Source: Rugalucina vietnamica
Taxonomy: Eukaryota; Mollusca; Bivalvia; Lucinida; Lucinidae
Assembly (NCBI GenBank): GCA_964017185.1
Contig: OZ024876.1
Location: 10,169,726-10,233,725 of the forward strand
Direction of reading: 5' to 3'
Length of the DNA: 64,000 nt
Both the position numbers and the translations under genes were made by a program. Below, piece by piece: positions 5,246 to 39,235 of this stretch. Within the stretch, counting starts at the first letter, position 1, and each line of letters opens with the position of its first letter. The notes under the pieces were generated by a model. It did not search any database. It saw nothing but the letters and a program-made list of their open reading frames with translations, and had not been told where the DNA came from.

Positions 5246-5349
5246 GTCACATTTGTTTAAAGGCTGGCCATGATACTCTTGACTGCTGGTTTAACGGTAG
5301 GAGCAATGGAAGGTCAGACAGAAATAGTAGATAGGAATCCACAGGGCGC

Positions 5350-6027
5350 ATGAAACATGATTGTGAATTTAGTGTTCCTATATATAATACATTTGATTTA
5401 TTATCGGAAACTTCCTTCCTGAATGAAAGTGATTGTTCTAATGACCATCTTTCCACTGCTCCATCCGATGAATCTTTGATCGAAACTGTGGTATATACAA
5501 CTCTGTCTTGTGATGCTAGCAGCTCAGCTTCCTCGGGTTACGAATCAATGCCAAATGTATCAAACGCCCAGATCAACAATTCCGAGTTTGTTTTTAAAAC
5601 AAAGGGTCTGCACATGGCGAACTTAAACATACGCCACATACTACCTAAACTCGATGAGTTACGCATTGTGATGTCAAGTGAAAATGGTCCAGATATACTT
5701 GGACTGTGTGAGACTTTTTTAAATGAAAATATCGCATGTAACGAGTTGACAATAAATGGCTTTGAGTATTTGCGAAAAGATCGCTCTGTTACGATAGATA
5801 AATCGGGAGGCGGTTTAATTTTGTATTTTCGAAATAACATAAACTGTAAACATCGGCCTGAATTCAAAATATCAAAGATAGAAACCATATGGACAGAGAT
5901 ATCTCTACCAAATTCCAAACCTTTTCTTTTATGTACGACATATCGCCCCCAGATGCTAAGTCGAACTGGATCGATCTTTTCGAAGAAGAGCTGTCGGCAG
6001 CACAAACCAGTGGCTTGGAAATAATAT
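5350..6027 (+). pseudogene. LINE endonuclease region, left half (APE-type non-LTR retrotransposon)
   Basis: The frame opens with ATG at 5350. After an N-terminal stretch of about 80 residues, the apurinic-endonuclease-like fold begins: an ANLNIRHILPKLDEL block, the catalytic-type GLCETFL, then GGGLILYFR and a TIWTEI strand. The intact frame shifts at a run of five C (5946-5950): downstream of it the expected protein continues in the next frame, so one base appears lost or mis-assembled. The gene is then cut at 6027 by the LTR element. The rest of the endonuclease (GDIN and SDHFPV motifs) resumes at 21589. The motif set suggests the CR1/Jockey group, by inference. No RT domain remains on either side. 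Confidence 0.8.
6024..6027. other. Target-site duplication (left), atat
   Basis: atat directly precedes the LTR and recurs at 21585-21588 directly after the other LTR. Removing the element and one copy rejoins the LINE endonuclease in a single reading frame. Confidence 0.85.
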
Positions 6028-6397
6028 TGCAACGGGAGCCTAGCGCCGAGATAATCTTGTCAGGATAAACTAGGATCGTCGCATAATTTGCGTAGGTTCG
6101 CCTGGCCTGGTAGCTTAGCTAAGGGTAGTGATATAGAGTCAAGTCTGGAGGGGTTAAATTTCAATTAATTTAATTAAACATACCCTATTAAATGTGAGCA
6201 ATATCTATACATATTTCAACATTTATACAGATGTGCTGGCTTAAACCGATGATTTATAATATTCGGGGGAGTCTCAATCTCAATATAATTTATTACACTA
6301 ATACTTCTAAAGTACCATATCATCAATGCAACATAAGATGGTGCAAACCTAGTATGTTAGATATGAAACCCTATAATGTGTACAAAGTACACCAACA

Positions 6398-7110
6398 ATG
6401 GTGTACACAAGTACGAAGGATGTGTTAATTTATTATTTACTAAAATGCACCAACGATGGTGTGCACCAACGATGGTGTGAGGGATGGTGCGATTGTTATT
6501 CGCTAAGGTGCACCAACGATGGTGTGCACCAACAAGGATGGATGATAGTATTTGATGGTTGTATAACTAAGTGCACCAACGATGGTGTGCACCAACAATG
6601 GTGTGAGGGATGGTGCGATTGTTATTCGTTAAGGTGCACCAACGATGGTGTGCACCAACAAGGATGGATGATAGTATTTGATGGTTGTATAACTAAGTGC
6701 ACCAACGATGGTGTGCACCAACAATGGTGTGAGGGATGGTGCGATTGTTATTCGTTAAGGTGCACCAACGATGGTGTGCACCAACAAGGATGGATGATTG
6801 AGTGATAATCTAAAGTGCACCAACGATGGTGTGCACCAACGATGGTGAGCACCAACAAAGATGTATGATTGAGTGATAATCTAAAGTGCACCAACGATGG
6901 TGTGCACCAACGATGGTGAGCACCAACAAAGATGTATGATTGAGTGATAATCTAAAGTGCACCAACGATGGTGTGCACCAACGATGGTGAGCACCAACAA
7001 AGATGTATGATTGAGTGATAATCTAAAGTGCACCAACGATGGTGTGCACCAACACCAATGGTGAGAGTTTACAAGTTGCACCTTCCAGATGGTATGCACC
7101 AACAATAATG
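6398..7110. repeat. Tandem hairpin array within the LTR
   Basis: Two kinds of repeat unit share the core GTGCACCAACGATGGTGTGC. One is about 125 bp long (units near 6505, 6629 and 6754). The other is 71 bp long (units near 6812, 6882, 6953 and 7024). The core folds on itself: GGTGCACC pairs with GGTG(T)GCACC around AACGAT. In element sense the array lies between the TATA box and the first AATAAA, that is, in the R region of the transcript. The apparent 135-residue frame here is a repeat artefact. Confidence 0.85.
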
Positions 7111-7458
7111 TAATTTACACTAACAAAGTAGTGTATCAAATAAACTCAAATATTCTCCTATATATTTCTTGCTATTTTAGAAAACATACTTTAGAGAAAT
7201 TAATATAAAATTCATGTGCCAACCAGCCTTAAAGTATCAAATGCCAAATAAACACAGCACCAACAAGTCTAAACAACACAAAATGATTATGAGATTACAT
7301 CAAGTGGACCCTTCTGGTGTGGTCTAGGCATGATGGTGCTATAGACTCAGCAAGTGAGAGTTGTTATACGAGAATATTCAAGAACAATGGGCTAAAGCAG
7401 CTCAAGTTGACTATTTGAATCAAATTCAAATAATGCCGCCAGAGCTACTCCGCTCTGC

Positions 7459-7465
7459 TTTTATA
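7459..7465 (-). promoter_or_regulatory. TATA box copy in the downstream LTR
   Basis: TATAAAA on the minus strand, followed by GCAGAGCGGAG. It is the duplicate of the functional position at 21174-21180. Here it would drive transcription out of the element into the left flank. Confidence 0.5.
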
Positions 7466-7871
7466 CCCATGGGTCACATGACCCCAGGGGACGCTACTAC
7501 GGAAGCCCACGAAAGGCGGATGGTGCATTCGGGAATTTCCGTAACGTTGGTGCAGTTTCGGTCGATGCGGACCATTCTGCAATTACAACCAACGGAAAGT
7601 ACCGAAAATATACGATGATGGTGCAGTTTAGAAGACCCGACGATTCGATCGAAAAATCCAAAAATACAGCCGTACAAAGACATAACAACACGCAAATTTG
7701 GTGAAAATGTAAAATATAGAGGTAAATCTAACTGATCATTCACCGATTCCCGTCAATTCAGCGAGGAAGCGAGTAAAATTAGCGAAGAAAGTTGGCACAC
7801 GATGTTTACATAATTTCGACAGTCCTAATACCCGATACAAAGAAGCAGCAATAGCCCTGTTCCGTTACATA

Positions 7872-7882
7872 GCCCCCCATCC
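7872..7882 (-). other. Polypurine tract
   Basis: On the minus strand GGATGGGGGGC lies two or three bases before the LTR start TGTAACGG. This is the expected place for the plus-strand DNA primer of reverse transcription. Confidence 0.7.
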
Positions 7883-7891
7883 ATAAAGGAC

Positions 7892-7914
7892 ATGGACCCC
7901 ATGAGGAGCGCCAG
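7892..7914 (+). CDS. Antisense unit, predicted exon 1 coding part
   Basis: An ATG at 7892 is followed by seven codons and two further bases up to CAG|GTAAGT, a consensus splice donor with the intron starting at 7915. The exon would begin inside the LTR and cross the complement of the polypurine tract. It leaves two bases of a codon, which fits exon 10519-10620. Its start is undefined. The evidence is splice-site quality and phase only. Confidence 0.45.
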
Positions 7915-8938
7915 GTAAGTAAAACAGGTAAAATGATATCAATACTTGAAATTTTGAACATACAAAATTGAAGTTTGGTTTGGTGGCTATTGCTGTTACT
8001 TTCAACTCCCCAGAACAACTAGTAAACAATTAAGTACAGTACATGACCATAAGTTGTGAACAATAAATACATTTTATGACACCCTTAATTGCGGACTTTT
8101 TCTTAAATAAAATAGATGAAATTGAAGATGATTCCGCTTTAAAAATGACTTCAATAATTAACAGATAATTCATAATGAATGAAATTTAACTGAGAGGCTT
8201 AATTAGAAATCAATTTTACATTTAAAACTTTCAAATGTGATTTCATATGAAGATAATTTACATAAACTGCTATTACAGTTGCTGTTCAAAGGTACAGTAA
8301 CAGACTAGAAAAGCGATGTCTACAATTTTCGTTAACAATGACCACATCGGTTAGAGCCTTACTTTCAACTTGGACATGTAAGTATATCATAGGTAAGTGA
8401 CATTATAATTACAAGCCAACTAACAATGCTGCAATTTTCAAGATTGAAACAAGATACCATTTTGACATTTGAATTTTTACATATCATTGGTCTCTTACCT
8501 GGATATGCAAGAACCGACTTAATTCGAACCTATATATACTTTAATTAATGAGTACTTAGATACCATTGCATACTTCCAGGTAAGACTTGCAGCCAGCACA
8601 TCAACAAGTTATACAACAACTTGGCATAAAGATATTCACCATATATACACATAACATCTTTCGCAATTCAAGAATGGAATTTAACATGTTTTGTCAAGTT
8701 GAACATATACAAACTTGCTTGACACAACCTATTCATTGCAATAATATCTATATCAATTCTCATGTAAAATATAGCAGATCATTATGCAGTGCATAACAAT
8801 GGTAAATTGGATATAGTTCTGGTTGTGCACACATTAATCTCAATCAGACTCAAAACAAGCATTTAGTCAAACTAAATTATTGAATCATGACATACAATTA
8901 ACTATAGCTGCATATACATGTATTATCATTCATTTCAG

Positions 8939-9046
8939 GTAGCAAAGACATGACTCTGGCGTTATGGTTACCTAAGGCAGCTATGTGATAGTCCATACTC
9001 AGAAGGCACATGTGATACCAGTCGGCTAATGCTCTACTCTTAAGAG
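8939..9046 (+). other. Antisense unit, possible cassette exon
   Basis: It lies between an ATTCATTTCAG acceptor and an AGAG|GTAAGT donor. The 108-nt length keeps phase, but in the phase set by exon 1 it introduces a TAG at once. If used, it would be a stop-containing (poison) exon or part of a non-coding RNA. Confidence 0.35.
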
Positions 9047-10518
9047 GTAAGTTTCATGACAGTGCACAATATTGGTGCACATTCTGTGCACACACATAAA
9101 ATTTCGTGATTTATACAAAACTAACATTATTCCATTTCAAATCTTTACACATTTATAATTCAGATACAACATAACGCTCATCAAGCTCCTAGCACTCAGT
9201 ATTCATTTGCAAACAGTTTAACCATTGCTTCACAGAAGATAGCTAGAATACCATAAACATACATTTTTCTTTCAATCAATAATCAACCAGAAAAGGTGTT
9301 TCACACCAAAAAAAAAATTTGTGTCATACCTAGTCCAACAAATATCCTTAGGTGAAACATTGCAAATGTGATATCAACAAAAACTTGAGTCATATCTACA
9401 CATGCATTTATTCTTCAAACATTGAAACAGTGAATCAAAAATTTCATAACAACTAGTGATCATTTAGCCTAAAAACATGAGCGTAATACAGCACCTAGTT
9501 ATAGCTCACATGTTTGCGAGACCAAATCTTATACTTTCAGACTTCTCAGACTGCAACATAATTATACTGGGCTTAAAAAGACAATATACCAGTAACTTTA
9601 GAATAATGACCATCAATATGACAAATAGTATGATTGGTGTTATCAAATATCTTATCAGTTCATTCACTCTATTTTGTACATAAAACAGTTGCCTTACATT
9701 GCAGTATCTAATAGATAGCATTACTTATGGGATTGCGACACAGTTACTAGGCTTCAAATATGTAATACTTCAATATGACTGTCTTGTTGACTCAATATAC
9801 ATAACAATACATTTCAACAAGTTACACCATTCATCAAATTTATAGTTGTTCATAAAAATAGTGTCTGACAAATAAAAACTAGTTGGGAGACTGTGCAAAA
9901 TAGCTAAGCTTTTAAATATACTACAATCTTGTTTTCTGGTATGTAAATTCAAGTAATCAATATGCTGATTTCCTAAAATAACCTTACTTTCACAAACTTC
10001 TTTCACTATCATGATATAGAAAAACTGCTAATTGCTAATTTACTTTGACTATGAAATTGTAAGAACATCAACAAAAATATGTACAAGTACAACTACCTCA
10101 AATTACTTCACAATACCTAGAAATTCTATTAAAAATGACAGATTTATTCCTTATGATATTTCAAAAGTAATACTTAGTTCAAATAGCCAAATCTTAATAT
10201 TGCTACGAATGAAATATAGAAGAAAAAGGTCTAAAAATTTATGATTGAAATTTAGAAATTGAAATTTAGTTATAGACTAAGATTTTAACAGTCTCCAAAA
10301 ATATGAAAAATACAATAATTACTTAACATTAATTTCTAACTTAACTAAAACTAAATTCCGCCTTCTTGGTAGAGTAGTCCTTGGTCTTCTGTGGATTGAC
10401 ATCGATTTTATTTATGCTTCAGGAATGTCCATATTTTTCGCGAAATTTGATTTTAATAAATTAATTTTTAATTTTACGCGGGAAATTTCACACGCGATTT
10501 CTTCTTCTGTATTTTCAG

Positions 10519-10620
10519 GCAGATGACGTCCCTGATAGTATCTCAATTGTTGGAGATACTACATCTCAAGTTAGTATCTCAATTGTTGGAGATACTCATC
10601 CATCTCAATAGAATTTCTAG
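10519..10620 (+). CDS. Antisense unit, predicted exon 2
   Basis: The acceptor is very strong (CTTCTTCTGTATTTTCAG, ending 10518) and the donor is perfect (CTAG|GTAAGT). The 102-nt exon is open in the phase set by exon 1 and encodes a leucine-rich segment. That segment includes a 25-bp direct repeat (10536-10560 and 10572-10596, offset 36 bp), so a seven-residue S-Q-L-L-E-I-L block appears twice. The exon lies just past the ORF3 stop codon on the other strand and does not overlap it. There is no recognised family. Confidence 0.5.
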
Positions 10621-10640
10621 GTAAGTTGATGACATCCTTG

Positions 10641-12458
10641 CTAGAACGCAAGCCCAAGGGAAGCATATGTATCTAGCCTTGCTTCCACCAACCTTCTGAG
10701 GCCATCCAGATTATAGTAGATGCACTCATATTTTAATTCCAGCAAATATCTGTTCTCTCGGGGGAGGACGTCCATTGAGATGTTGCAGTCCTCCCTTAGA
10801 AAGTTTAAGATGTATCGAAAATGAGCACCGTCCCTATCTATGAAGTAATGCTTTTGTCCCCTTTTGGCTAGACTGTACAGCTTAGAATTCCCGTCCTTCA
10901 TTAAAGTCATTCGGGTAGTGGCAAAATGCCTCCCACCAACGTCTAGTGTTATTCTGTCTTCCAGCGTGAAACCCACATCATTCTGTTTTCTCTCAAGTTC
11001 AAGGTCTTTTCTTGTTATAATAGGTTCATTCTCATTTTCGGATTCTGCTTCTCTCACAATATTTCTTATCGCTTCATCCATCATTCTCTCCTCTTTAGCT
11101 CTTTTAACATTTCTTTCATTCTCTATCCTCTTTTCCTCCCTTTTTCTCTTTCTTTCTTCTCTCCTTAGAACCTTTTCTTGCTTCCTCAATAACTCTTCTG
11201 ATGTCAATTCTTCACTCTCCTTTACAACCTCTTCCTGTACATTAATCTCATCTTCATTCAGTATTATGATTTCATCTTTCTGTTTTTGTTTCCTTTTAGT
11301 TTTTTTCTCCTTCTTTTCCTTCTTAAGTCTTTCTTCATCATTTTCTTTCTCGTGATTTTCTACTTTCATTTCTACATTCTCAGTACTTTCCTCTTTTTGC
11401 TCTACATTGTCCTCATTTCTTAGAGTTTTCCTTGCTTCTTTAATCTCAATTTCACGCTCAGTGTTCTCAATTTCTACTTCGCTGTCCTTTTCTGTGGATT
11501 GAGTTTCAGTTTTCTCATTGTTCTTCACACTGTCATTCTCTTTATTCTCATTCTTATTTGCTACCTTCATGTTTGCACTTGCTCCTTCAGTTTCAATTTC
11601 TACATTTTTACACACTTCTTTTTCCTTACTTTGTTTCACTACAATTCGACTGTCTTCTACTATATTTTCAGGTGTTGCTGTTGATGAGGTAGTATACCCT
11701 GTAACTGGTAGTCCTTCTGGCTCTACGTGATGTACCGAGGTCATCGACTCCACAATGTTTTGGAGAACATCCGCAGCCATGGCTACCTCTTCTTCAGTAG
11801 GTATAGCAATTTTTAACACAGGAGTGACATGTACGGACGGTGACATTTCTGGCGTGGAAGCCTCCTTCCGAGCCTTCTTCGTTAGGGACTCAATAGACTC
11901 CACATATTCCGGGTCGCCTTGAACAATTTTCACCGGAGAGTTGAACTCAACGTCAGTCAGTATTATCTGCGGATCCTCCCCAAATGGGGACGGCGAGCGA
12001 GGACGTGTTACTGTGGCTGACTTTGTTGGCTTCACTGGCTTCGATAGCGTCCGCCTTTTGGGTGCATGTATCTTTTTGTTTAAGGGGGGTTGTAGTGGCT
12101 TCTCCATCTCCTTCACCGTGGATTCCACCTTCGGTTTCCGGGTCGTGGATTTCTCAAGAGAAACATCCGCATTGGCACTTGGTTTGGGAACATAGCTCCA
12201 GTGGGTGTCACAGCGTTCTCTGATGAACTCCTCTATGTATCTCCTTGCATCGTCTCCCCTGCGACCGGTCTCGGTGTGGATTGGGGTGAATTCATGTGGC
12301 CTGGACCCGCATCTATGTGGTATGGTCTGCCGAGCATACAACTCCCCACAGTTGTGGCACTTCCATTGGATCCCTGTGTGGATGTCTTGCAGGTGCCGCC
12401 GCACCTGCCATATGTGTTGGGAGTACTTGCCACACAGATGGCAGAGGTAGTGGTATCC
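10641..12458 (-). CDS. ORF3: C2H2 zinc finger, charged coiled coil, BTB/T1 (KCTD-like) protein in the env position
   Basis: This is a passenger gene of the LTR element, co-oriented with gag-pol and following it. Numbering from a GTG at 12470, residues 10-31 form C-x2-C-x12-H-x4-H, and 38-54 form a second Cys/His cluster (C-x2-C...H-x-C). Residues 60-290 are low-complexity and proline-rich. Residues 290-500 are a Glu/Lys/Arg-rich probable coiled coil. Residues 506-609 match the BTB_2/T1 potassium-channel tetramerisation fold (LDVGGRHF, TTRMTL, FIDRDGAHFRYILNFLRE, then L.LKYECIYYNLDGL). T1 domains of KCTD proteins oligomerise and many act as Cullin-3 adaptors, so a DNA/RNA-binding, self-assembling regulator is a possible role, by inference. 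The frame is open back to 12503 without an ATG. TTGTGTACTTCCAG ending at 12459 is a plausible acceptor, so expression probably needs splicing from an upstream exon. No signal peptide, transmembrane segment or fusion motif is present in this exon, so it is not an envelope. Confidence 0.88.
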   Translation of the reverse strand, partial: GYHYLCHLCGKYSQHIWQVRRHLQDIHTGIQWKCHNCGELYARQTIPHRCGSRPHEFTPIHTETGRRGDDARRYIEEFIRERCDTHWSYVPKPSANADVSLEKSTTRKPKVESTVKEMEKPLQPPLNKKIHAPKRRTLSKPVKPTKSATVTRPRSPSPFGEDPQIILTDVEFNSPVKIVQGDPEYVESIESLTKKARKEASTPEMSPSVHVTPVLKIAIPTEEEVAMAADVLQNIVESMTSVHHVEPEGLPVTGYTTSSTATPENIVEDSRIVVKQSKEKEVCKNVEIETEGASANMKVANKNENKENDSVKNNEKTETQSTEKDSEVEIENTEREIEIKEARKTLRNEDNVEQKEESTENVEMKVENHEKENDEERLKKEKKEKKTKRKQKQKDEIIILNEDEINVQEEVVKESEELTSEELLRKQEKVLRREERKRKREEKRIENERNVKRAKEERMMDEAIRNIVREAESENENEPIITRKDLELERKQNDVGFTLEDRITLDVGGRHFATTRMTLMKDGNSKLYSLAKRGQKHYFIDRDGAHFRYILNFLREDCNISMDVLPRENRYLLELKYECIYYNLDGLRRLVEARLDTYASLGLAF

Positions 12459-12472
12459 CTGGAAGTACACAA
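12459..12472 (-). promoter_or_regulatory. Candidate splice acceptor of ORF3
   Basis: The minus-strand sequence TTGTGTACTTCCAG directly precedes the zinc-finger coding sequence. A second AG at 12503 is possible but has a poorer pyrimidine tract. An acceptor is needed because no ATG exists between the upstream stop (12504) and the zinc finger. Confidence 0.4.
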
Positions 12473-12580
12473 ATACAATATTGTTTATAGCTAAGATGCT
12501 ACATTAGTCATCTCAATGTTAGAATTCACACCATTCAACTTCTAATTTTCTGTTCTGACAAATTTTTGCATATATTTCAG

Positions 12581-13390: not shown

Positions 13391-16300
13391 TTAGACCAGT
13401 GATTCATCTGTTTTAAACCAAGTTGGTTTATCATCACATAAGTACGGATACATATGATCATGGTGCGCAATCTCAGGTTTAGCTTTTGGACCAGATTTTA
13501 CTCTGTAAAGTACCTCATTTAAACATTCAACAACAACCATTGGTCCCTTCCAGTGCGCCTGGAGTTTAGGATTAAACCCTACTCGTCTTCGCGGTTTAAA
13601 ACACCAAACAGGATCACCAACTTTATACTCATTGTAATTTGTTTTCAAGTCATATTTGCGCTTCATGCTGTCGCTCGCGATGCTCATATGTTTTCTCGCA
13701 AATTCATGTATTTCAATCAATTTTTGTTCTAACTGATATGCATGATCAGTCGCACAAATTCTCTCATCTTTTACAGGACGACCTAAAGCTAAGTCAATAG
13801 GAAGAGTGAGATCACGACCAAACGTCATCATGGCGGGCGAGACACCCAATGTTTCATGAACAGAGGACCTATAGGCTAACATAAGTAATGGTATGTGCTC
13901 GTCCCAGTCATCCTGTTTGTCTGATATGTAGGATGCAATCATATTTTGGATGGTTCTATTTGCACGCTCCACCATACCGTCACTTTGTGGTCTTCTCGGT
14001 GTGGTTCGTGTCTTATCAATACCGAGAAGCTTGCAAACTTCTTGAAAAACTTTGGATTCAAAGTTTGTGGCTCTGTCCGTGTGGAGCTGCAATGGAACCC
14101 CAAATATAGAAATGAATTTCTCTACAAGATTCTCAGCAATATGAGTGGCTTCTTGCGATCGTAACGGAATGGCTTCAGTCCATTTGGTAAAATAATCTGA
14201 GATTACCATCAAATATTTGTTACCATTTTTCGATACTGGGTATGGACCACTCAGATCAATAGCTATTCTTTCCATTGGAAAGCCAACATTATATTGTCTC
14301 ATAGGGGCTTTGGCGCGTCTTGGTGGTAATTTCCTTGAACCACAAGTTGGGCAAATTCTGCACCAATATGCAACATCTCGGTGCATATTGCACCAATAGA
14401 AGCGTCGTTTGAGCTTATCGTAAGTTTTGCTTCTACCAAGATGTCCCCCTGTAATATATTCATGTAAGTGTCTGAAAACTTCCTTCCTCAATGAGGTAGG
14501 AATAATGTACAAGTAATCTGTGCCAGTTACTGTAAACTGCTTCTTACAAAGTATTTCATCTTTGATTTCTATGGTATCCCATTTGTACCAATAGATTTTG
14601 AGCTCTCTACAACAATGTGCTATCATAGCCCAGTCAGGCTTATTTCCGGCTCTCTTCCACTGAAGTAATTGTTGTAATATAGGATCATTCGCTTGCTCAA
14701 AACGAATGCTTTCCTGACTGATTTCTGCTCTGTTTACACTTGCACCATCAACTGCTCTTGAGCTCATCTTTGTGCTCTGATTTGTACACTCATTTACTGT
14801 ATCTTTACAGTTGCTGTCACTGTTTTTGGTACTACAAGAAAGACCAGTTTGAAGAAGATCTGAGGGGTGTCTATTTGAAAGTTTACTCTCACAGGGTAGG
14901 TAATCCTCACCAGGATGGTGCACAGTATCCTCATGAGTTACTTCCCTTGCTGGTAACATGCCTGCATGACCAACATTCTGGCAATCTGATACTCTTTCAA
15001 ATAAGGTGCTTGGTTTTCTCTCAACAGCCCTGTCATGTGACAGCGTGGAACTGTCATCAGTGCTATCAAGTTGAGAGGAGACCTGAGCAACCTCTTGCTG
15101 TTCTGATTCAAATAAGTACCCAATCAAAGGCTCCTCTTCAAATCTGTCAAGCCAGTCATCATGGTGCGCCACCTGGCTGCACCGTATATCAGGACGAACA
15201 CAAGAAACATAATGAATTTTGTGAGTTCTTTCATCCACCGTGTCATTACATGCGTTCCTGACAGGTGAGGGAGCACGATCAGTAAACTCCCTAGGTGCTG
15301 TCTCGTCCGAGACCCCCGATGTAACTCTTTGGCCTAAAGAACTGGTGGTGCATGCTTCTCCACCAGTCAATGTGTCGTCATTAAATATGGGCCCAATACA
15401 AGCATAAGGATCACTGTCCTTGCTACAATATAATCTGGCATCATCATTTTGCATCTCATTAGAGACAATATCATCGGTAGTACCATACCGTCTACATGTC
15501 AGACATTTTATATCAGCAGTGTCAGTTGTCTTGACTTGGGTTTGTGTACATACATAGTCGTGACACTGATATCTACATGGAGCACCATTCTCTGAGCAGT
15601 TTTGCTCTGCGTAACTCAATTTCCGTACACATTCATCACTCTCAATTTTTGCACTTGTTTTAGAGCTACGGTTTTCACTCAAGTCTGGGCAGTATTTGGC
15701 TTCGTATCGTTCACAATACGGACAATTGTCTGCATAACAAGGTCGTCTACTGACGGCGTCAGCATTGGAATTCATTCTGCCTGCACGAAATTTCAGTTTA
15801 AATGAATAGGACGACAGCGTTTCAAGAAAGCGAGCTAACTGCCCTTCACCAGTATTTCTGAAGTTCATAATCCATCGTAAACTTCCGTGATCACTTCTAA
15901 TAACAAATTCTTGGCCGTACAAGAAAGTATGGAAGTGTTTTACTGATGCGACAACTGCCAGAAGTTCCTTCCGTGTTGTGCAATATTTTCTCTCTGCTCT
16001 TGTCAAACATCTACTGAAATAACCAATAACTCTTTCTTCACCATTTTGCAGCTGATGAAGTACAGAGCCTATACCAACATTTGACGCGTCACAGTCTAAC
16101 ACAAAGCCAGTTCCCTCAGGGTCTACGTAGCTGAGAACAGGTGCTGTGGTTAGAAGTCTTTTGATGGTGTCAAAGGCGGACTGAGTCTCATCATTCCAGA
16201 CAAATTTTTGGTCTTTTTCAGTAAGTTTGTGCAGAGGTTTGCACACCGTAGCAAATGAAGGAATGAATTTCCTGTAATAGGATGCCAATCCAACAAATTG

Positions 16301-17959
16301 TCGCACTTCTTTGACAGTTCTGGGCTGTGGCCAATCCTTGATGGCTGCAACTTTCTCAGGGTCGGTTTCTATACCAGCCTCGGAAACCTGATGGCCCAAA
16401 AAGGAAACACGCTCCGCAAAAAGGCTACATTTTTTCGGATTGAGTTTCAAGTTTGCTTGACGAAGCCTCTGAAACACCTCACGCAAATTTTCCAAGTGAG
16501 CCTCAAATGTTTTTGAGTATATGATGATGTCATCTAAATAGATGAGCAGAAACTTGAATGTCAATCTGTCAAATACCCTTTCCATCAGACGCTCGAACAC
16601 ACTTCCCGAGTTTATTAAACCAAAAGGAAGTACGCGGAACTGCCATAAACCACTGCCAGGAATCGAGAAAGCAGTTAGCGGCCTATCAGTTTCTTTTATC
16701 AAGATTTGGTGAAAGCCCGATTTCAAGTCGACAGTCGAGAACCATTTCGATCCTCCGAGCGCTCCCAAGGTGTCTTCTGGGTTAGGTAATGGATGCTTGT
16801 CTGGAATTGTCACCTCATTCAATTTCCTGTAATCAATGCAAAACCTGGTGCTGCCATCTCGTTTTGGTACCAAAACGACTGGCGAACTCCAGGGCGAACA
16901 AGAAGGCTCGATAAGATTTTTCTCTGCCATAAGCTCAATTTCTTTTCTGGCAAATTCTTGCTTTGCTAATGGAATTCTATATGGTCTTTGGTACACAGGT
17001 TTACAGTTTGGTTCTGTTCTAATGGTATGTTCTGCTAACCCAGAAGAACCGAGGTCGTGCGAAGATCGTGAAAATATATCTTTAAATTCACGCAATAGAG
17101 CAGCCATATTTTCTGCTTGCGACACAGAAAGGTTTTCAGAGCTACGAGCAATCAAATCTTCAATGTGTGAGGTATCATTATTCTGGGTATCATCATTTGC
17201 AATGCTCTCTGTACCAAGGGAATTAACTCTCTCAAAAGTTTCTGTTTCCACCGGCTCATATACTGCTGTAATTGTATTTTTATGGAGAAAGCATGGCTTG
17301 TCCTGTACATTCATAATGCGCAAAGGCACTGTTCCCAATTTTGGACTTACTAAAGCTTTCGCCACCATAAGGCCATAACGTGTGGTGAAAGCTTGAGAAG
17401 CCTCCAATACACCAACACTATCTTTGTCAAAACTATCAATTGGCCTGCCCTGCACAATTATTTCACACTCAGGAGGCACCTCAATACTTTCTGTCAAAGC
17501 TATTCTACAGCAAGTAGCTATAGCATCAACGCTGTTGCGAAAACAAGCAATTCTTTCTCCATTCAACATCAAATGATCTTTGCTCAATAGAACATCACAG
17601 CCATATTTACTCAAGAAATCAATGCCCAGTATGCCATCATTTTCAATATCGGCAAACAAAAATTGCTGTTTTAATTTTTGATTTCCTAATGAAATTTCAA
17701 CATCTGCTTTACCATAAAATGGTGAACAGTGACCTGTAGCTGTAACTAATTGTATATTTACAGGTGTCAAGCTGGGAAGATGTTCCTGCGGCAAACTATC
17801 TAAAAGACCATGACGCAAAATAGTAGCATTTGAACCAGTGTCTATCAAAAAGGTAAGAGGCAAATTCCCTATACGAGCTGGTACAAAGTATCCTTCTTCC
17901 ATATTTCTAAGTGCTATCTTTTCGGGCCGGCTTATTGGTGTCGAGTTGTGGCCCCCCAA
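13391..17959 (-). CDS. pol: Pol polyprotein of the Ty3/Gypsy element
   Basis: This 1522-residue frame encodes the replication enzymes. The protease has LIDTGSNATIL (DTG near residue 40). The reverse transcriptase has FCIDYRKLN, LPFGL and the YLDD active site near 475. RNase H has DCDASN near 621 and SDHGSLRW. The integrase has a GGHLGRSKTY / CPTC zinc-binding region near 1170-1215 and a D, D-x35-E triad (IAIDLSGP, HTDRAT, MVERANR), followed by a GPF/Y-like KGPMVVVE segment. No chromodomain follows. A tether of about 400 residues (roughly 750-1150) between RNase H and integrase is far longer than usual and has Cys clusters. The frame starts with TTG at 17959, is -1 relative to gag and overlaps it by 28 nt, so it is probably made by frameshifting. 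No stop codon or missing catalytic residue was found. Confidence 0.95.
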   Translation of the reverse strand: MGGHNSTPISRPEKIALRNMEEGYFVPARIGNLPLTFLIDTGSNATILRHGLLDSLPQEHLPSLTPVNIQLVTATGHCSPFYGKADVEISLGNQKLKQQFLFADIENDGILGIDFLSKYGCDVLLSKDHLMLNGERIACFRNSVDAIATCCRIALTESIEVPPECEIIVQGRPIDSFDKDSVGVLEASQAFTTRYGLMVAKALVSPKLGTVPLRIMNVQDKPCFLHKNTITAVYEPVETETFERVNSLGTESIANDDTQNNDTSHIEDLIARSSENLSVSQAENMAALLREFKDIFSRSSHDLGSSGLAEHTIRTEPNCKPVYQRPYRIPLAKQEFARKEIELMAEKNLIEPSCSPWSSPVVLVPKRDGSTRFCIDYRKLNEVTIPDKHPLPNPEDTLGALGGSKWFSTVDLKSGFHQILIKETDRPLTAFSIPGSGLWQFRVLPFGLINSGSVFERLMERVFDRLTFKFLLIYLDDIIIYSKTFEAHLENLREVFQRLRQANLKLNPKKCSLFAERVSFLGHQVSEAGIETDPEKVAAIKDWPQPRTVKEVRQFVGLASYYRKFIPSFATVCKPLHKLTEKDQKFVWNDETQSAFDTIKRLLTTAPVLSYVDPEGTGFVLDCDASNVGIGSVLHQLQNGEERVIGYFSRCLTRAERKYCTTRKELLAVVASVKHFHTFLYGQEFVIRSDHGSLRWIMNFRNTGEGQLARFLETLSSYSFKLKFRAGRMNSNADAVSRRPCYADNCPYCERYEAKYCPDLSENRSSKTSAKIESDECVRKLSYAEQNCSENGAPCRYQCHDYVCTQTQVKTTDTADIKCLTCRRYGTTDDIVSNEMQNDDARLYCSKDSDPYACIGPIFNDDTLTGGEACTTSSLGQRVTSGVSDETAPREFTDRAPSPVRNACNDTVDERTHKIHYVSCVRPDIRCSQVAHHDDWLDRFEEEPLIGYLFESEQQEVAQVSSQLDSTDDSSTLSHDRAVERKPSTLFERVSDCQNVGHAGMLPAREVTHEDTVHHPGEDYLPCESKLSNRHPSDLLQTGLSCSTKNSDSNCKDTVNECTNQSTKMSSRAVDGASVNRAEISQESIRFEQANDPILQQLLQWKRAGNKPDWAMIAHCCRELKIYWYKWDTIEIKDEILCKKQFTVTGTDYLYIIPTSLRKEVFRHLHEYITGGHLGRSKTYDKLKRRFYWCNMHRDVAYWCRICPTCGSRKLPPRRAKAPMRQYNVGFPMERIAIDLSGPYPVSKNGNKYLMVISDYFTKWTEAIPLRSQEATHIAENLVEKFISIFGVPLQLHTDRATNFESKVFQEVCKLLGIDKTRTTPRRPQSDGMVERANRTIQNMIASYISDKQDDWDEHIPLLMLAYRSSVHETLGVSPAMMTFGRDLTLPIDLALGRPVKDERICATDHAYQLEQKLIEIHEFARKHMSIASDSMKRKYDLKTNYNEYKVGDPVWCFKPRRRVGFNPKLQAHWKGPMVVVECLNEVLYRVKSGPKAKPEIAHHDHMYPYLCDDKPTWFKTDESLV

Positions 17960-19443
17960 TTCGACGGATTCAAGTTTCCCTGGCGATTGTTATCATTCTC
18001 AAAAGAGGTAGCAACGCTTACACCATTGCCATGTGTAAAACCATCATCATTTCTTCTCGAGAAGTTCTGATCATTGCGAGAATTGTGACCTCCAGAATTG
18101 CTCTGTTTTGCTTGGTATGAGTTATTACCCCTATATTGATTGTTGTGATTACCAGATCTTTGGTCATTTCGCCAGTTTTGATTGGTGCGATTGAACCTCT
18201 GAAATCTAGTATTTCTACCATTATTTTTCTGATAACGGTTCCCCTGAGTTTGGTTTGAGGCTTGATTGTAATTTGTACTCTTGGGTCTTTGCTTACTAAT
18301 GTTTTTCACCTCATTTGTAAGAGTTGAAATTGCCTCTGAAAGCGTTTCGATTTGCCCAGGTGATTTATCTCGCTCGTCTTTCTTCTGTTCATCATCGAAA
18401 TCGACGCGACCGACCAAACGAGATCTCTGCTTGTCAGCAATCTTATACGCTTCAATACGCACGGCGGTTTGTTCTGCGTCTTCAAGAGATTTCGGTCCAG
18501 CTTCACGCAAGCGAAGACGTAAGTCTGAATCAGTAATGGCATCAATGAAATAATCAAGAGATAATGTCTCTACTACTTCTTTATTTACCCCTGGATAAGC
18601 TTGTCTTACAAGTTTCTTTATTGCTTGTGCAAGTTCGGGAATTGTCTCCCCTTTATTTCTTATCCTAGATTTCAACTGTGTGCGGTAAATTTCTGATTTA
18701 TTCACCGAGCCAAATCTATTTCTCAATTTCTCTACCAGTGTATTGTAATCTCTTTTACCCTCATGATCAAGCTCATTTAGCAAAGACCTTGCTTCTCCAG
18801 TTAAACAATTTGCCAAATAAAGAGATTTTTCTTTATATTGCCACCCATTGATCTCACAAGTTATTTCATATTGTGAAATAAAGTCATCAAAATCAGTCCC
18901 ATTGAATGTTTGAGGTTTCATTTTGCAGTGGTTGTTATCTCCCTTAGACTGGTCTGAGAATTGGACCTGTCTTGCATTTTGTGAGTTAGAAGAAAAACAA
19001 CTCTGGTTGGATGGTGCAGAAAGCTGTGGCATGTTGTCTCCCCTGTTTTGAGAAATCCTTCCCAAAGTAAAAGGGTCACCACCTGACTCAGTATGTGAAT
19101 TGCTTTGGTGTGTCTGGTTAAACAATGATGTACTTCTATTTGCATTCTGATTTTCTAATTCTGTGCTAGAAGTGATATTGTTTAGTTTCTGTTCAATTTG
19201 CGAAAATTTTCTCTCAAATTGCTCTGTAAGATTTGAGACAGAATTTTGCAAGGAAGCTACGGTGTTTTTCACCATAGTTGCCATTTTAGCCATTTCATTT
19301 TCCAATCTGTTTTCTAACATTGACAATTGAAGTTCACTGGCTGAACTAGTGTCAGATTGTGTGTCTAAGGCCTGGTCATCTATATGATCTCGTAACGGCT
19401 CAATATGCTCATTTGCATCTTGCTGAGAATTATTCTCTGCCAT
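17932..19443 (-). CDS. gag: Gag structural polyprotein of the Ty3/Gypsy element
   Basis: ATG at 19443 is chosen over the GTG five codons upstream, giving 503 residues. Residues 1-40 are acidic and polar. Residues 35-95 look like a coiled coil. Around 165-330 is a capsid-like segment with FNGTDFDDFISQYE and LANCLTGEARSLL, as in retrotransposon Gag domains. The C-terminal 130 residues are rich in Asn, Gln, Arg and Gly with repeated N-R-G-type words and would bind RNA. No CCHC zinc knuckle is present, which is unusual. Gag packages the genomic RNA in the cytoplasm. The end overlaps pol at a six-G run (GGGGGG), the likely shift site. Confidence 0.9.
   Translation of the reverse strand: MAENNSQQDANEHIEPLRDHIDDQALDTQSDTSSASELQLSMLENRLENEMAKMATMVKNTVASLQNSVSNLTEQFERKFSQIEQKLNNITSSTELENQNANRSTSLFNQTHQSNSHTESGGDPFTLGRISQNRGDNMPQLSAPSNQSCFSSNSQNARQVQFSDQSKGDNNHCKMKPQTFNGTDFDDFISQYEITCEINGWQYKEKSLYLANCLTGEARSLLNELDHEGKRDYNTLVEKLRNRFGSVNKSEIYRTQLKSRIRNKGETIPELAQAIKKLVRQAYPGVNKEVVETLSLDYFIDAITDSDLRLRLREAGPKSLEDAEQTAVRIEAYKIADKQRSRLVGRVDFDDEQKKDERDKSPGQIETLSEAISTLTNEVKNISKQRPKSTNYNQASNQTQGNRYQKNNGRNTRFQRFNRTNQNWRNDQRSGNHNNQYRGNNSYQAKQSNSGGHNSRNDQNFSRRNDDGFTHGNGVSVATSFENDNNRQGNLNPSNWGATTRHQ
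17947..17959 (-). promoter_or_regulatory. Gag-pol overlap with candidate -1 frameshift site
   Basis: The minus-strand TTGGGGGGCC lies 20-30 nt before the gag stop. The pol frame is -1 relative to gag. It is not a canonical X-XXY-YYZ heptamer, so slippage on the G run is inferred. Confidence 0.4.
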
Positions 19444-19531
19444 TTTGTTTAGTATCACTACACACTAGCTGTGACCAAAACCAGGATTTACAATGTGGAT
19501 TTATAACAAAATTTATCTTTTATATTTTCAG

Positions 19532-19722: not shown

Positions 19723-19740
19723 TCCACTCCTCTGACACCA
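19723..19740 (-). other. Primer-binding site, tRNA-Leu-like
   Basis: On the minus strand, two bases after the LTR end, the sequence is TGGTGTCAGAGGAGTGGA. The first nine bases match the complement of the 3' end of common animal tRNA-Leu (...CTGACACCA). The remainder matches with a two-base offset. Confidence 0.6.
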
Positions 19741-20112
19741 AATGCAACGGGAGCCTAGCGCCGAGATAATCTTGTCAGGATAAACTAGGATCGTCGCATA
19801 ATTTGCGTAGGTTCGCCTGGCCTGGTAGCTTAGCTAAGGGTAGTGATATAGAGTCAAGTCTGGAGGGGTTAAATTTCAATTAATTTAATTAAACATACCC
19901 TATTAAATGTGAGCAATATCTATACATATTTCAACATTTATACAGATGTGCTGGCTTAAACCGATGATTTATAATATTCGGGGGAGTCTCAATCTCAATA
20001 TAATTTATTACACTAATACTTCTAAAGTACCATATCATCAATGCAACATAAGATGGTGCAAACCTAGTATGTTAGATATGAAACCCTATAATGTGTACAA
20101 AGTACACCAACA

Positions 20113-20825
20113 ATGGTGTACACAAGTACGAAGGATGTGTTAATTTATTATTTACTAAAATGCACCAACGATGGTGTGCACCAACGATGGTGTGAGGGAT
20201 GGTGCGATTGTTATTCGCTAAGGTGCACCAACGATGGTGTGCACCAACAAGGATGGATGATAGTATTTGATGGTTGTATAACTAAGTGCACCAACGATGG
20301 TGTGCACCAACAATGGTGTGAGGGATGGTGCGATTGTTATTCGTTAAGGTGCACCAACGATGGTGTGCACCAACAAGGATGGATGATAGTATTTGATGGT
20401 TGTATAACTAAGTGCACCAACGATGGTGTGCACCAACAATGGTGTGAGGGATGGTGCGATTGTTATTCGTTAAGGTGCACCAACGATGGTGTGCACCAAC
20501 AAGGATGGATGATTGAGTGATAATCTAAAGTGCACCAACGATGGTGTGCACCAACGATGGTGAGCACCAACAAAGATGTATGATTGAGTGATAATCTAAA
20601 GTGCACCAACGATGGTGTGCACCAACGATGGTGAGCACCAACAAAGATGTATGATTGAGTGATAATCTAAAGTGCACCAACGATGGTGTGCACCAACGAT
20701 GGTGAGCACCAACAAAGATGTATGATTGAGTGATAATCTAAAGTGCACCAACGATGGTGTGCACCAACACCAATGGTGAGAGTTTACAAGTTGCACCTTC
20801 CAGATGGTATGCACCAACAATAATG
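20113..20825. repeat. Tandem hairpin array, second LTR copy
   Basis: Same array as 6398-7110. Here it would be transcribed as the 5' leader of the genomic RNA. Confidence 0.85.
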
Positions 20826-21173
20826 TAATTTACACTAACAAAGTAGTGTATCAAATAAACTCAAATATTCTCCTATATATTTCTTGCTATTTTAGAAAAC
20901 ATACTTTAGAGAAATTAATATAAAATTCATGTGCCAACCAGCCTTAAAGTATCAAATGCCAAATAAACACAGCACCAACAAGTCTAAACAACACAAAATG
21001 ATTATGAGATTACATCAAGTGGACCCTTCTGGTGTGGTCTAGGCATGATGGTGCTATAGACTCAGCAAGTGAGAGTTGTTATACGAGAATATTCAAGAAC
21101 AATGGGCTAAAGCAGCTCAAGTTGACTATTTGAATCAAATTCAAATAATGCCGCCAGAGCTACTCCGCTCTGC

Positions 21174-21180
21174 TTTTATA
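21174..21180 (-). promoter_or_regulatory. LTR core promoter (TATA box)
   Basis: Minus-strand GGGTATAAAAGCAGAG, preceded by the palindrome-like GTCATGTGACCC. It is the only good TATA box found in the LTR in gag-pol orientation. Confidence 0.65.
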
Positions 21181-21584
21181 CCCATGGGTCACATGACCCC
21201 AGGGGACGCTACTACGGAAGCCCACGAAAGGCGGATGGTGCATTCGGGAATTTCCGTAACGTTGGTGCAGTTTCGGTCGATGCGGACCATTCTGCAATTA
21301 CAACCAACGGAAAGTACCGAAAATATACGATGATGGTGCAGTTTAGAAGACCCGACGATTCGATCGAAAAATCCAAAAATACAGCCGTACAAAGACATAA
21401 CAACACGCAAATTTGGTGAAAATGTAAAATATAGAGGTAAATCTAACTGATCATTCACCGATTCCCGTCAATTCAGCGAGGAAGCGAGTAAAATTAGCGA
21501 AGAAAGTTGGCACACGATGTTTACATAATTTCGACAGTCCTAATACCCGATACAAAGAAGCAGCAATAGCCCTGTTCCGTTACA

Positions 21585-21588
21585 ATAT
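21585..21588. other. Target-site duplication (right), atat
   Basis: Pairs with 6024-6027 around the LTR element. Confidence 0.85.
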
Positions 21589-22226
21589 TTATGGGTGACA
21601 TAAATATTGACTATAAGGCATGCTCGAACAGCAAGTGGCTTAATCTTATACAATTGTTTGATCTTTCACAATTGATTACTGACTATACTAGGGTAACCAA
21701 GTCAACTACCACCATTATTGATCATGTATATACATCAAACCCTGAGAATATTGTTGAATGCTTTGTTTCATCGTTCGCGATCAGCGATCACTTCCCGGTT
21801 TGCATAACCAGAAAAATAAATAAGAAAATTGCTAAAAACGAACATACGACCACATCTTATAGGTGTTTTAAAAATTTCAATGAATCTTTGTTCCTCCAAG
21901 ATCTGGGTTCTGATATGGAGTCGTTTTCGCTGTCTGAATTTAATGTCGATAATGATTTTACATCATGGTATTCAATCATCCAAAAGCATATGGATACACA
22001 TGCGCCTATCAGAACTAGGAGAGTAAAATCACAGCGTCTACCCGAATGGTGTACACCTGAAATTCTCTCAGCTAGACGAATGCGTGACAGTTTTAAAAAA
22101 GCTAAAAATTGGTCTCAGTATAAAATATATCGGAACAAAACACAGGATCTTATACGCAAAGCAAAGCGGCATCATTTTTCAGCATCAATTCTTTCTCAAA
22201 AAGACACTAGACTTACTAGTCAATGA
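21589..22226 (+). pseudogene. LINE endonuclease C-terminus and linker, right half
   Basis: This continues the LINE cut at 6027. FMGDINID supplies the D-x-N endonuclease motif and SDHFPV the terminal S-D-H motif. HAPIRTRRVKSQRLPEWCTPEI then begins the usual linker before the RT domain. The frame stops at 22226 where the DNA passes abruptly into a fragment of LINE family C (TAGTCAATGAATCATCAAG from about 22212). The RT is therefore missing: the LINE was already truncated or rearranged when the LTR element landed. Confidence 0.8.
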
Positions 22227-37619: not shown

Positions 37620-38134
37620 CCGGCTGTCCAAAACAGGACATATCAGAATTACAATCAGTATGTCTACTGTTTGCAATGATACAAGAAAACTAATCTAAAG
37701 AATTGAATCCACCGTCCTGAAAATTTATAAAATACCAGTTTGTCACGAACATATGAAAAAGGTAGCACAAAGCACACATCAGAATACAGCCATCTGTGTA
37801 TGTATACTACTCAAATTTTAATAGGGATCAAAATTTTAGTTTTGTTCACAGGATAAACTGGTTATCTAACACCCAAACGTTTGCTTAAAAATGTACAAGA
37901 GCCATCACTGTGCAAACATTCCATTTTTTTCGCGTTGTCTGCAAGCGTTTCTTGTGCACTTTCAGAAACGATAGAACTTCCTGAAATTGAAGTTGTCCCT
38001 GTTGCCTACCGTATCCATTTCTGTCATTCATCCCCTTTTCTGGTTCATTCAACTGCAAAACTGTTTTGATAATCAGAAGTCGATACTTTTATGTCTTATA
38101 TAGACAATAACTTTATTGATTTATTTAATTTCAG
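37620..38134 (+). other. 5' flank of the GPCR gene
   Basis: No repeat was recognised. A splice acceptor TTTAATTTCAG ends at 38134, suggesting that an upstream non-coding exon is joined to the GPCR exon. No clear promoter was seen. Confidence 0.4.
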
Positions 38135-38167
38135 ATTAACCAAACTGTCCTTGACCTCCTTCGAAGC

Positions 38168-39235
38168 ATGCGCAATGTGACAGAAAATGATGAACTTCCG
38201 GTTGCAGACACGACATTGAGGGACGAAGCAGCGATTGTGGACAAGATTATTTCACCGATTCTTTATGTTTTTGGATTTCCAGGAAACATATTTGCTTTCA
38301 TCGTATGGGTTCAGCCGCGCATGCGTCATTCATCTGGGATTTATCTTGCCGCACTGGCTGTGGCAGATCTAGTGTTCCTTGTTTTACACGTGCTGTTCGA
38401 GTTATACAAAGTTTGGAATGTTCAGTTATTCGATGTACCAGTGTTATGTGAATTATTTCCAGTTGTTTTCATGGCGCCACAGTATGTGTCACCCCTGCTG
38501 GTACTCGCTTTTACTGTTGAACGGTTCATAGCGATTTGTATTCCGAGTAAACGGCAATCATACTGCACGTCATTTAGGGCCAAAATCGTCTGTTCACTCA
38601 TAACGATATTTTCGTTCGCCCTGGCGTCGATGCAGGCTTATATTTACAGATACAACAGCAGACACAAATTCTGTGGGATTCGAGTTTCAACTGTTAGCGG
38701 AGGAACTCTGTCATTTTGGTCAATCTGGACATGGATCACAGAGATGCTTGTCTTCATGTTTGTTCCTTTGCTGATTCTGCTATTCAATGTACTGATCATA
38801 CGAGAAATTAAGCGCCACAGCGACACAGATGCTAGTTTAAAGGCAATCTGGCAGACGACAACGTTTTCCTTGCTTGTCGTTTCCTTTTATTTTATTATAA
38901 CGACCCTCCCGGTATCCGTGGTGTACGCCATACGGTACTATTTTATTCCGTCGGCAGAGACTGTTGTTGATGCAAATCGACAGGCGAAATATCTTTTGGC
39001 GAAGACGATAATTGAAGAAATTGGAATAACACATTTTGCATGTAAATTTTATTTATTTTTATTCGCTGAAAGACTCTTTAGAGAGGAATTTGTGAATGTT
39101 GTTCGTCGAGTATTATGTTGTCGGCGGAGGGATACAATAGGTTATATTCAGCAGACGGATCACACGGAAAACACTACTTGGCACGAAACGGAAATATCTC
39201 CGCCAGTAAACGCGGAAGAAACCAATACGGTTTAA
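38168..39235 (+). CDS. Class A (rhodopsin-like) G protein-coupled receptor, orphan peptide-receptor type
   Basis: This 355-residue receptor has seven hydrophobic segments, near 27-48, 57-80, 95-125, 138-160, 186-212, 230-256 and 280-302. Family marks seen are GN at 39-40 (TM1), LAVAD at 63-67 (TM2), the likely disulphide pair C94 and C169, and ERF at 118-120 in place of DRY. TM6 carries P248 but no CWxP. TM7 reads HFACKFYLFLF in place of NPxxY. CC at 317-318 could be palmitoylated and NVT at 3-5 glycosylated. It would signal from the plasma membrane through G proteins. The ligand is unknown; the layout suggests a neuropeptide-type (FMRFamide/TRH receptor-like) group, by inference. Coding is in one exon starting at ATG 38168, 34 nt after a splice acceptor. 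No repeat interrupts it. Confidence 0.88.
   Translation: MRNVTENDELPVADTTLRDEAAIVDKIISPILYVFGFPGNIFAFIVWVQPRMRHSSGIYLAALAVADLVFLVLHVLFELYKVWNVQLFDVPVLCELFPVVFMAPQYVSPLLVLAFTVERFIAICIPSKRQSYCTSFRAKIVCSLITIFSFALASMQAYIYRYNSRHKFCGIRVSTVSGGTLSFWSIWTWITEMLVFMFVPLLILLFNVLIIREIKRHSDTDASLKAIWQTTTFSLLVVSFYFIITTLPVSVVYAIRYYFIPSAETVVDANRQAKYLLAKTIIEEIGITHFACKFYLFLFAERLFREEFVNVVRRVLCCRRRDTIGYIQQTDHTENTTWHETEISPPVNAEETNTV

Follow-up and report, generated by a model that had tools for sequence, protein, structure and literature searches.

What kind of gene can occupy the envelope (env) position of a long terminal repeat (LTR) retrotransposon, and is it a host fragment or a gene of the element? The question is raised by a stretch of 64,000 nucleotides from the bivalve Rugalucina vietnamica (assembly GCA_964017185.1, contig OZ024876.1, positions 10,169,726 to 10,233,725 of the forward strand; hereafter the window), in which a complete Ty3/Gypsy LTR element of 15.6 kb, on the minus strand from 21584 down to 6028, carries a third open reading frame (ORF3) for a protein with zinc-finger motifs and a T1/BTB_2 domain. 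ORF3 belongs to one Ty3/Gypsy clade as an old, conserved accessory gene and is not a passenger host fragment. The best joint explanation, to which we assign a probability of roughly 0.55, is that this clade gene is expressed through splicing, encodes an oligomeric nuclear regulator and is exchanged as a cassette. The features of the frame are:

10641-12503, minus strand: ORF3 open frame, 620 amino acids, on the same strand as gag and pol, in the env position
10641..12458, minus strand: ORF3 exon, 605 amino acids counted from a candidate splice acceptor
12168..12455, minus strand: N-terminal module with a C2H2 finger, a C2HC finger and a strand-helix-strand extension
10965..12167, minus strand: middle part, E/K-rich, partly helical, the most divergent part
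10641..10964, minus strand: C-terminal T1/BTB_2 domain, residues 498-604 of 604, plus stop

ORF3 as a trait of one Ty3/Gypsy clade

The sole Pfam model over its cut-off in the window ORF3 is BTB_2 (E=1.4e-13, over the curated cut-off, residues 502-586 numbered from Y at 12455), which confirms the domain assigned by a reading made from the DNA letters alone (the sequence-only reading); no envelope-type domain was found in this protein. The C2H2 residues described at the other end are present as a motif (C-X2-C-X12-H-X4-H) followed by an additional C2HC finger (C-X2-C-X10-H-X-C), and the N-terminal 96 residues have a predicted fold with a mean predicted local distance difference test score (pLDDT) of 88.7; however, no Pfam finger model reached its cut-off in the window protein, where the fingers are known as motifs. 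Among the three frames scanned (gag, pol, ORF3), C2H2-like and CX2CX10HXC motifs occurred in ORF3 alone. The middle part is predicted to be part helical and part disordered, and the coiled coil named in the same reading holds loosely as a label. The T1 domain is closest to KCTD proteins (top profile matches KCTD1, KCTD15 and KCTD16), and by sequence and fold it probably descends from a KCTD-type ancestor.

The length of the frame, the E-value of its domain and its recurrence in the genome exclude a chance frame. Three protein searches, one of which scored just the 8000 candidates with most shared words, yielded 12 relatives with the ORF3 architecture (24-97% identity to the window protein), which together with the window protein were aligned in 13 rows; BTB_2 is present in all 11 members of alignment A2. 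The candidates P0011 (Kelch-BTB) and P0014-P0016 (multi-BTB) were excluded from the set for their different architecture. The finger-2 ligands are conserved in the rows having the column (C33 in 8/8, C36 in 9/9, H47 in 9/9, C49 in 8/9; the columns are missing in P0001-P0003 and P0013, whose predicted starts lie further downstream), and those of finger 1, which few rows reach, are C5 in 3/3, C8 in 2/3, H21 in 4/4 and H26 in 7/7. The ORF3 middles of loci L044 (637-2949) and L045 (751-2796) consist partly of short tandem peptide repeats, and their length could change easily. Scans of viral contigs with two ORF3 alignments and with pol gave no relative, and none was obtained from prokaryote genome contigs.

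In the host assembly (1.09 Gb, 47 contigs; for ORF3, the best candidates only were scored), 76 ORF3 match rows were grouped into 54 loci, 37 of them with a frame of at least 500 amino acids; some of the rows at 28-30% identity could reflect low complexity. Of 20 loci whose upstream 10 kb were fetched, 19 have same-strand pol pieces (E < 1e-8) and L026 has none. The window integrase as query gave 109 rows with a clear identity gap between 51% and 45%, and a row was scored as ORF3-positive if an ORF3 match lay within 7.5 kb downstream: ORF3 followed 7/7 rows of 90-100% identity, 19/20 of 60-89%, 13/19 of 50-59%, and 0/63 below 50%. Three of the six negative rows in the 50-59% group were fetched, and all three hold a finger-T1 ORF3 whose divergence had hidden it from the first search (BTB_2 E of 8.1e-11, 1.7e-15 and 8e-10, the third being split over two frames). 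An integrase row lies upstream of 38 of the 54 ORF3 loci and is absent at 16, one of which (C2:71.56M, L028) has pol in its flank. By the association with integrase rows, and by the fetched exceptions, ORF3 is characteristic of one Gypsy clade, down to ~51% integrase identity.

The homologues that the sequence-only reading had asked for in other insertions therefore exist, at 54 loci and with pol upstream at 19 of the 20 sampled, and the outcomes it had set against itself, other copies lacking ORF3 or a one-off host fragment with a ratio of nonsynonymous to synonymous change (dN/dS, omega) near 1, are not what was observed: ORF3 is clade-wide, with a between-class omega of 0.13-0.15. Its view of a captured host regulator has to be revised. 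Nothing points to one recent capture, the gene being shared across the clade, and no host donor gene was found for ORF3.

Two ORF3 classes on near-identical backbones

Eight ORF3 copies of the window family and one further fragment were found in the assembly. Class A comprises the window, C13 and C2 (29.5 Mb); class B comprises C10, C4 (65.05 Mb), C4 (15.2 Mb), C2 (58.2 Mb) and the old broken copy C17. The comparison with the window used the best three class B copies, one on C10 and two on C4. They are 97-99.7% identical to the window in LTR ends, gag and pol, 93-99.6% in the leader, 82-89% in a repeat array of the LTR, 97-98% in the pol-ORF3 gap and ~99% over the 0.9 kb after ORF3, whereas ORF3 itself has nucleotide identities of 81-85% in the fingers, 65-68% in the aligned part of the middle and 79% in T1. 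The sliding identity profile against these copies delimits the following segment:

10700..12560, minus strand: exchanged ORF3 cassette, approximate limits

The left edge is at ~12560 in the two C4 copies and at ~12371 in C10, which has a class A-like first finger ahead of class B; over the last 50 bp of ORF3 identity is back at 98-100%. In C10 identity drops locally just past the stop, to 53% and 83% in two 60-nt bins; in the C4 copies it is just 73-74% in part of the later 3' region.

Synonymous divergence (dS) and omega were calculated by Nei-Gojobori. Between classes, ORF3 dS is 1.50 (C10) and 1.68 (C4, 65.05 Mb), saturated in T1; the ORF3 of the other C4 copy (15.2 Mb) is frameshifted and was left unscored. 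The gag dS of the same elements against the window is 0.040 (C10), 0.020 (C4, 65.05 Mb) and 0.013 (other C4 copy) in an ungapped comparison in which 0.040 may be inflated, and ORF3 dS thus exceeds gag dS ~37-fold in C10 and 86-fold in C4. Omega of ORF3 between classes is 0.145 (C10) and 0.133 (C4); the middle stands at ~0.19 and the fingers are lower, at 0.066-0.070. The two class A copies compared (window and C13) differ in the middle by 16 nonsynonymous and 3 synonymous changes, and in fingers plus T1 by 0 and 3, respectively; whole-exon omega is 0.60 within class A and 0.26 within class B (C10, C4). The LTR pairs differ at no position in the window, at 0/1691 in C10 (15 gap columns) and at 2/1729 in C4, and from this (near-)identity both classes moved recently.

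The ORF3 of C17 is 83-97% like class B, with 42% in the last bin, and its flank has diverged from that of the family (92.5% identity over a third of the gap, 79% in the 3' region). A second, weaker mosaic was seen in a distant family (C14 compared with C9), where the ORF3 stretch is 97-100% identical except for 43-96% at 900-1700, and the upstream part 98-100% except for two 100-nt bins (78% and 84%). ORF3 is constrained by purifying selection over the long term and yet apparently exchanged as a cassette; the class pattern would be explained best by cassette exchange through template switching between co-packaged RNAs. Cassette exchange and the fast-changing middle together suggest that part of the ORF3 protein faces a changing host partner.

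Expression signals and the surrounding element

Splice donors and acceptors were scored with weight matrices. Directly ahead of the ORF3 exon lies the following sequence, which ranks 5 of 634 AGs scored from 19000 to 10641:

12459..12478, minus strand: 3' splice-acceptor-like sequence TTGTATTTGTGTACTTCCAG

The end coordinate chosen for ORF3 in the sequence-only reading, 12458, is the first base past the CAG of this sequence. A CAG/G acceptor (slash, splice point) stands at the matching place in the DNA of L016, L020 and L022 (CAG/GCC in L022), with the first finger a few residues later, in backbones of which 13-57% aligns with the window, at ~67% identity; in L044 the acceptor position is known from the protein only (LQ/GSMFQC). 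As an acceptor-like site opens ORF3, translation from a spliced subgenomic mRNA is most likely. No ORF3 start codon was found at the window, and the donor scans gave no exon 1: window leader and gag contain no good donor (best score 3.1), the two donors above 4.5 in the span from 21200 to 12600 are located within pol or beyond it, and seven of ten other loci have no donor above 4. Such donors are present in L015, L016 and L018, the gag start being probably mis-set for L015 and L016.

The element itself and its target site comprise:

19743..21584, minus strand: 5' LTR, 1842 bp, TG...CA ends, identical to the 3' LTR
6028..7869, minus strand: 3' LTR, 1842 bp, TG...CA ends, 0 differences from the 5' LTR
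within the 5' LTR, minus strand: TATAAA at 21180, AATAAA at 20149 and 20009 (motif scan)
21585..21588 (5' side) and 6024..6027 (3' side): target site duplication ATAT, 4 bp (LTR-flank comparison)
5335-6024 and 21570-22226, plus strand: long interspersed nuclear element (LINE) endonuclease region, interrupted by the element
19724..19740, minus strand: primer-binding-site-like sequence TGGTGTCAGAGGAGTGG, 2 nt past the 5' LTR
17932..19464, minus strand: gag frame, 510 amino acids, ATG at 19443
17974..17980, minus strand: GGGAAAC, read G GGA AAC in the gag frame, inside the gag-pol overlap
13391..17989, minus strand: pol frame, 1532 amino acids, with protease, reverse transcriptase, RNase H and integrase by Pfam, overlapping gag
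7870..10640, minus strand: 2.8-kb stretch from ORF3 to the 3' LTR, with five antisense 5' splice-site consensus sequences
7915, 8393, 8580, 9047 and 10621, plus strand: positions of the antisense 5' splice-site consensus AG/GTAAG(T or A)
10519, plus strand: strong acceptor (splice-site scan)

The element described in the sequence-only reading, with ORF3 on the gag-pol strand between two LTRs and a target duplication, was recovered in full (identical LTRs of 1842 bp, ATAT). It is of Ty3/Gypsy (Metaviridae) type by the Pfam order in pol (protease 36-125, reverse transcriptase 374-535, RNase H 598-728, integrase 1163-1334), the TG..CA LTRs and the 4-bp duplication (4-6 bp expected); a candidate for the GPY/F module after the integrase core is HWKGPM, seen by eye, with Pfam Integrase_p58_C under cut-off. 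Between RNase H and integrase, pol residues ~735-1150 (~400 amino acids) are Cys-rich and then acidic by eye, with no Pfam match. TGGTGTCAGAGGAGTGG is a putative primer-binding site, and G GGA AAC is presumably a -1 slippery-type heptamer. The gag tail is R/G/N-rich by eye, and a motif scan of the window frames detected 0 CCHC knuckles in gag and pol. The element is nested in an older LINE copy, since joining the flanks at the insertion site restores a single open endonuclease frame across the junction. Where the start of the 5' LTR could be read (window, C10 and two copies on C4), the 5' flank ended in ATAT in all four cases; C13 has AATG as its 3' flank. A target-site preference for ATAT in this family is possible.

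No long sense frame was found in 7870..10640. The top enriched 7-mer of this stretch is CTTACCT (5 seen, mean 0.09, 0/2000 shuffles reaching 5), which was counted 5 times in the fetched 3' part of C13, 3 times in C10, 5 times in C4 and 0-1 times per 3 kb in five diverged copies; by these counts the antisense donors appear family-specific. The signals suggest a spliced antisense transcript of the 3' region. No antisense protein is claimed: joined predicted exons give at most 202 amino acids, mostly antisense of the E/K-rich part of ORF3. Elsewhere in the window, Rfam SECIS_1 matches at 41466-41533 on the minus strand (39.2 bits, gathering 35), where no selenoprotein frame stood out among nearby frames with TGA read through, and an open frame at 38129-39235 on the plus strand (368 amino acids) resembles a G protein-coupled receptor by eye.

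Proposed function, alternatives and known systems

We see roughly even odds that the ORF3 protein is a multivalent regulator acting in the nucleus on the DNA or RNA of the element itself. A spliced subgenomic mRNA entering at the ORF3 acceptor would yield the protein, the finger module is predicted to bind nucleic acid, and the T1 domain is predicted to cluster the protein into a tetramer or pentamer; the clustered protein may act in the nucleus on transcription, on shielding from silencing or on export of unspliced RNA, and template switching between co-packaged RNAs would swap the cassette. A candidate target is:

20100..20790, minus strand: tandem array in the 5' LTR, 13 copies of GTTGGTGCACACCATCGTTGGTGCAC (at most 3 mismatches), counterpart at 6385-7075 in the 3' LTR

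GTTGGTGCACACCATCGTTGGTGCAC has 26 matches in the window against 0.00 expected, and the array is probably in the repeated R part of the element RNA, because it has the TATA box on one side and the second AATAAA signal on the other. Its core is kept in five family copies (window and four others), with varying spacers and copy number (9-13). Covariation of the array with the ORF3 class was looked for and not seen, class A and class B copies having one core motif, which fits the fingers being more conserved. As the core occurred in 0/12 upstream stretches of diverged copies (from fewer than 12 families, LTR limits unmapped, L015 reaching ~1 kb before gag), binding of ORF3 to the array is hypothesised for the window family only. 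The first 5.2 kb of L015 and L019 contain other repeats, with a unit starting AAAATAATCAAAGGGA (9 copies) and ATCATAAAGAATC (5 copies). The RNA fold of the array (z = -5.75, 20 shuffles) is inflated by tandem repetition, and no RNA structure is claimed.

A different role would be that of a Cullin-3 (Cul3) substrate adaptor in a Vif-like counter-defence, in which T1 recruits Cul3 and the fingers or the middle bind a host restriction factor for ubiquitination; cassette exchange would then alter the target, and exchange and the variable middle are compatible with an arms race. T1 is nearest to KCTD proteins, many of which are Cul3 adaptors (PMC5664961). However, the alpha2-beta3 loop, which makes most KCTD-Cul3 contacts (PMC10856315), is 8-9 residues shorter in the window protein than in KCTD1/5/15, KCTD16 among the best profile matches is without Cul3 binding (PMC5664961), KCTD1 is termed atypical and a transcriptional repressor (PMC7618933), and T1 is C-terminal in ORF3. 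Loop length is not decisive, the ORF3 families of L020 and L022 having longer loops, and we regard an adaptor as unlikely; of the KCTD-type T1 with a Cul3 link in the sequence-only reading, the KCTD-like sequence and fold stand and Cul3 binding is doubtful. That ORF3 replaces a nucleocapsid within the particle, its fingers packaging RNA and its T1 multimerising, would suit the absence of CCHC from gag and pol and the restriction of finger motifs to ORF3; it appears quite improbable, as a spliced gene would probably yield little protein relative to Gag, the R/G/N-rich tail of Gag could itself bind RNA, and no ORF3-Gag contact is known.

The host-type T1 domain would suit a functionless captured host gene fragment, but for this element such a fragment is refuted by clade-wide presence, omega of 0.13-0.15, fixed position and the recurring splice acceptor, and its probability is minute. 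The two classes could also be an old balanced polymorphism in one family, the rest being homogenised by recombination with no recent introduction. Both classes on nearly one backbone with young LTRs, the class B-like ORF3 of the broken C17 already with a diverged family flank, and the joint of a class A-like first finger to class B in C10 agree with this, whereas the assembly may simply lack a donor element whose backbone is diverged, and the sample is small (eight family ORF3 copies and one fragment); we rate it as possible, somewhat below an even chance. Equally tentative is the proposal that ORF3 is a specificity gene swapped as a cassette, with old classes selectively kept on uniform, freshly moving elements.

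Among known systems, the nearest working model for ORF3 is CERV of Cer1 in C. elegans, a non-envelope protein from the region between pol and the 3' LTR, which is made from a spliced mRNA with exons 1-3 in the gag frame and is needed for genomic RNA export; one of its domains, with a Cys loop, is predicted to be capable of ring formation (PMC10309623). The term BTB occurs 0 times in PMC10309623, and the comparison is by description. Bdelloid rotifer LTR elements likewise acquired non-envelope third ORFs in the env position, for a GDSL esterase or a DEDDy exonuclease, the latter at least two times, whereas the window clade is wholly marked by one finger-T1 gene (PMC5408684). Non-envelope third ORFs being already known from these systems, the finger-T1 ORF3 is a variant of that kind. 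Insect endogenous retroviruses likewise carry a third ORF (env-F), and variants of rover recombine by strand switching. There the env-F tree follows that of pol, and the authors see in this an argument against exchange between lineages; by contrast, ORF3 dS in the window family is far above gag dS of the same copies (PMC12992720). Plant Retand elements share the long region between pol and the 3' LTR, family-specific tandem repeats and extra proteins suspected to be regulatory, but their domain-bearing extra ORFs (mostly TRP28) are antisense and ORF3 is sense, though antisense splice donors occur (PMC11963269). Troyka was rejected as a match (no envelope ORF, 3-bp duplications, CG..CG termini; PMC12440569).

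ORF3 shares the T1/BTB_2 domain of the KCTD family; there the BTB domain is N-terminal with a C-terminal partner domain, whereas in ORF3 the fingers and a long charged stretch come first and T1 is C-terminal, with a shortened alpha2-beta3 loop in the window protein. It differs from ZBTB-type transcription factors in that its sole passing BTB model is BTB_2, not the ZBTB dimerising type, and in that the fingers precede the BTB domain. Drosophila gypsy itself carries Su(Hw) sites. The gypsy insulator (Su(Hw), Mod(mdg4), CP190) is alike in outline, with zinc-finger sites and BTB proteins, but those are host proteins, and here fingers and a BTB-type domain are joined in one element-encoded protein (PMC5666082). 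BTB or ORF3 had 0 occurrences in the excerpts of mollusc and polychaete element surveys (PMC6238403, PMC8556966). Among the matches listed, mostly open-access literature, no description was seen of a finger-T1 protein, or of any T1/BTB protein, as the third ORF of an LTR element, or of a third-ORF cassette so diverged on a uniform backbone.

Genes in the env position of Gypsy elements are usually read as envelope or chance capture, and ORF3 is instead a lasting mark of a clade; it gives CERV of Cer1 a non-envelope counterpart to be compared with, and cautions that the history of third ORFs may differ from that of pol. It can now be tested which element proteins conflict with the host, and whether selection can keep alternative gene versions in a transposon family. 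If ORF3 is a specificity gene, different host factors would be evaded or addressed by different copies, or related elements would be distinguished through it, in likeness to the viral exchange of surface or regulatory genes, and the fusion of fingers with a T1 ring would give such a gene a new architecture.
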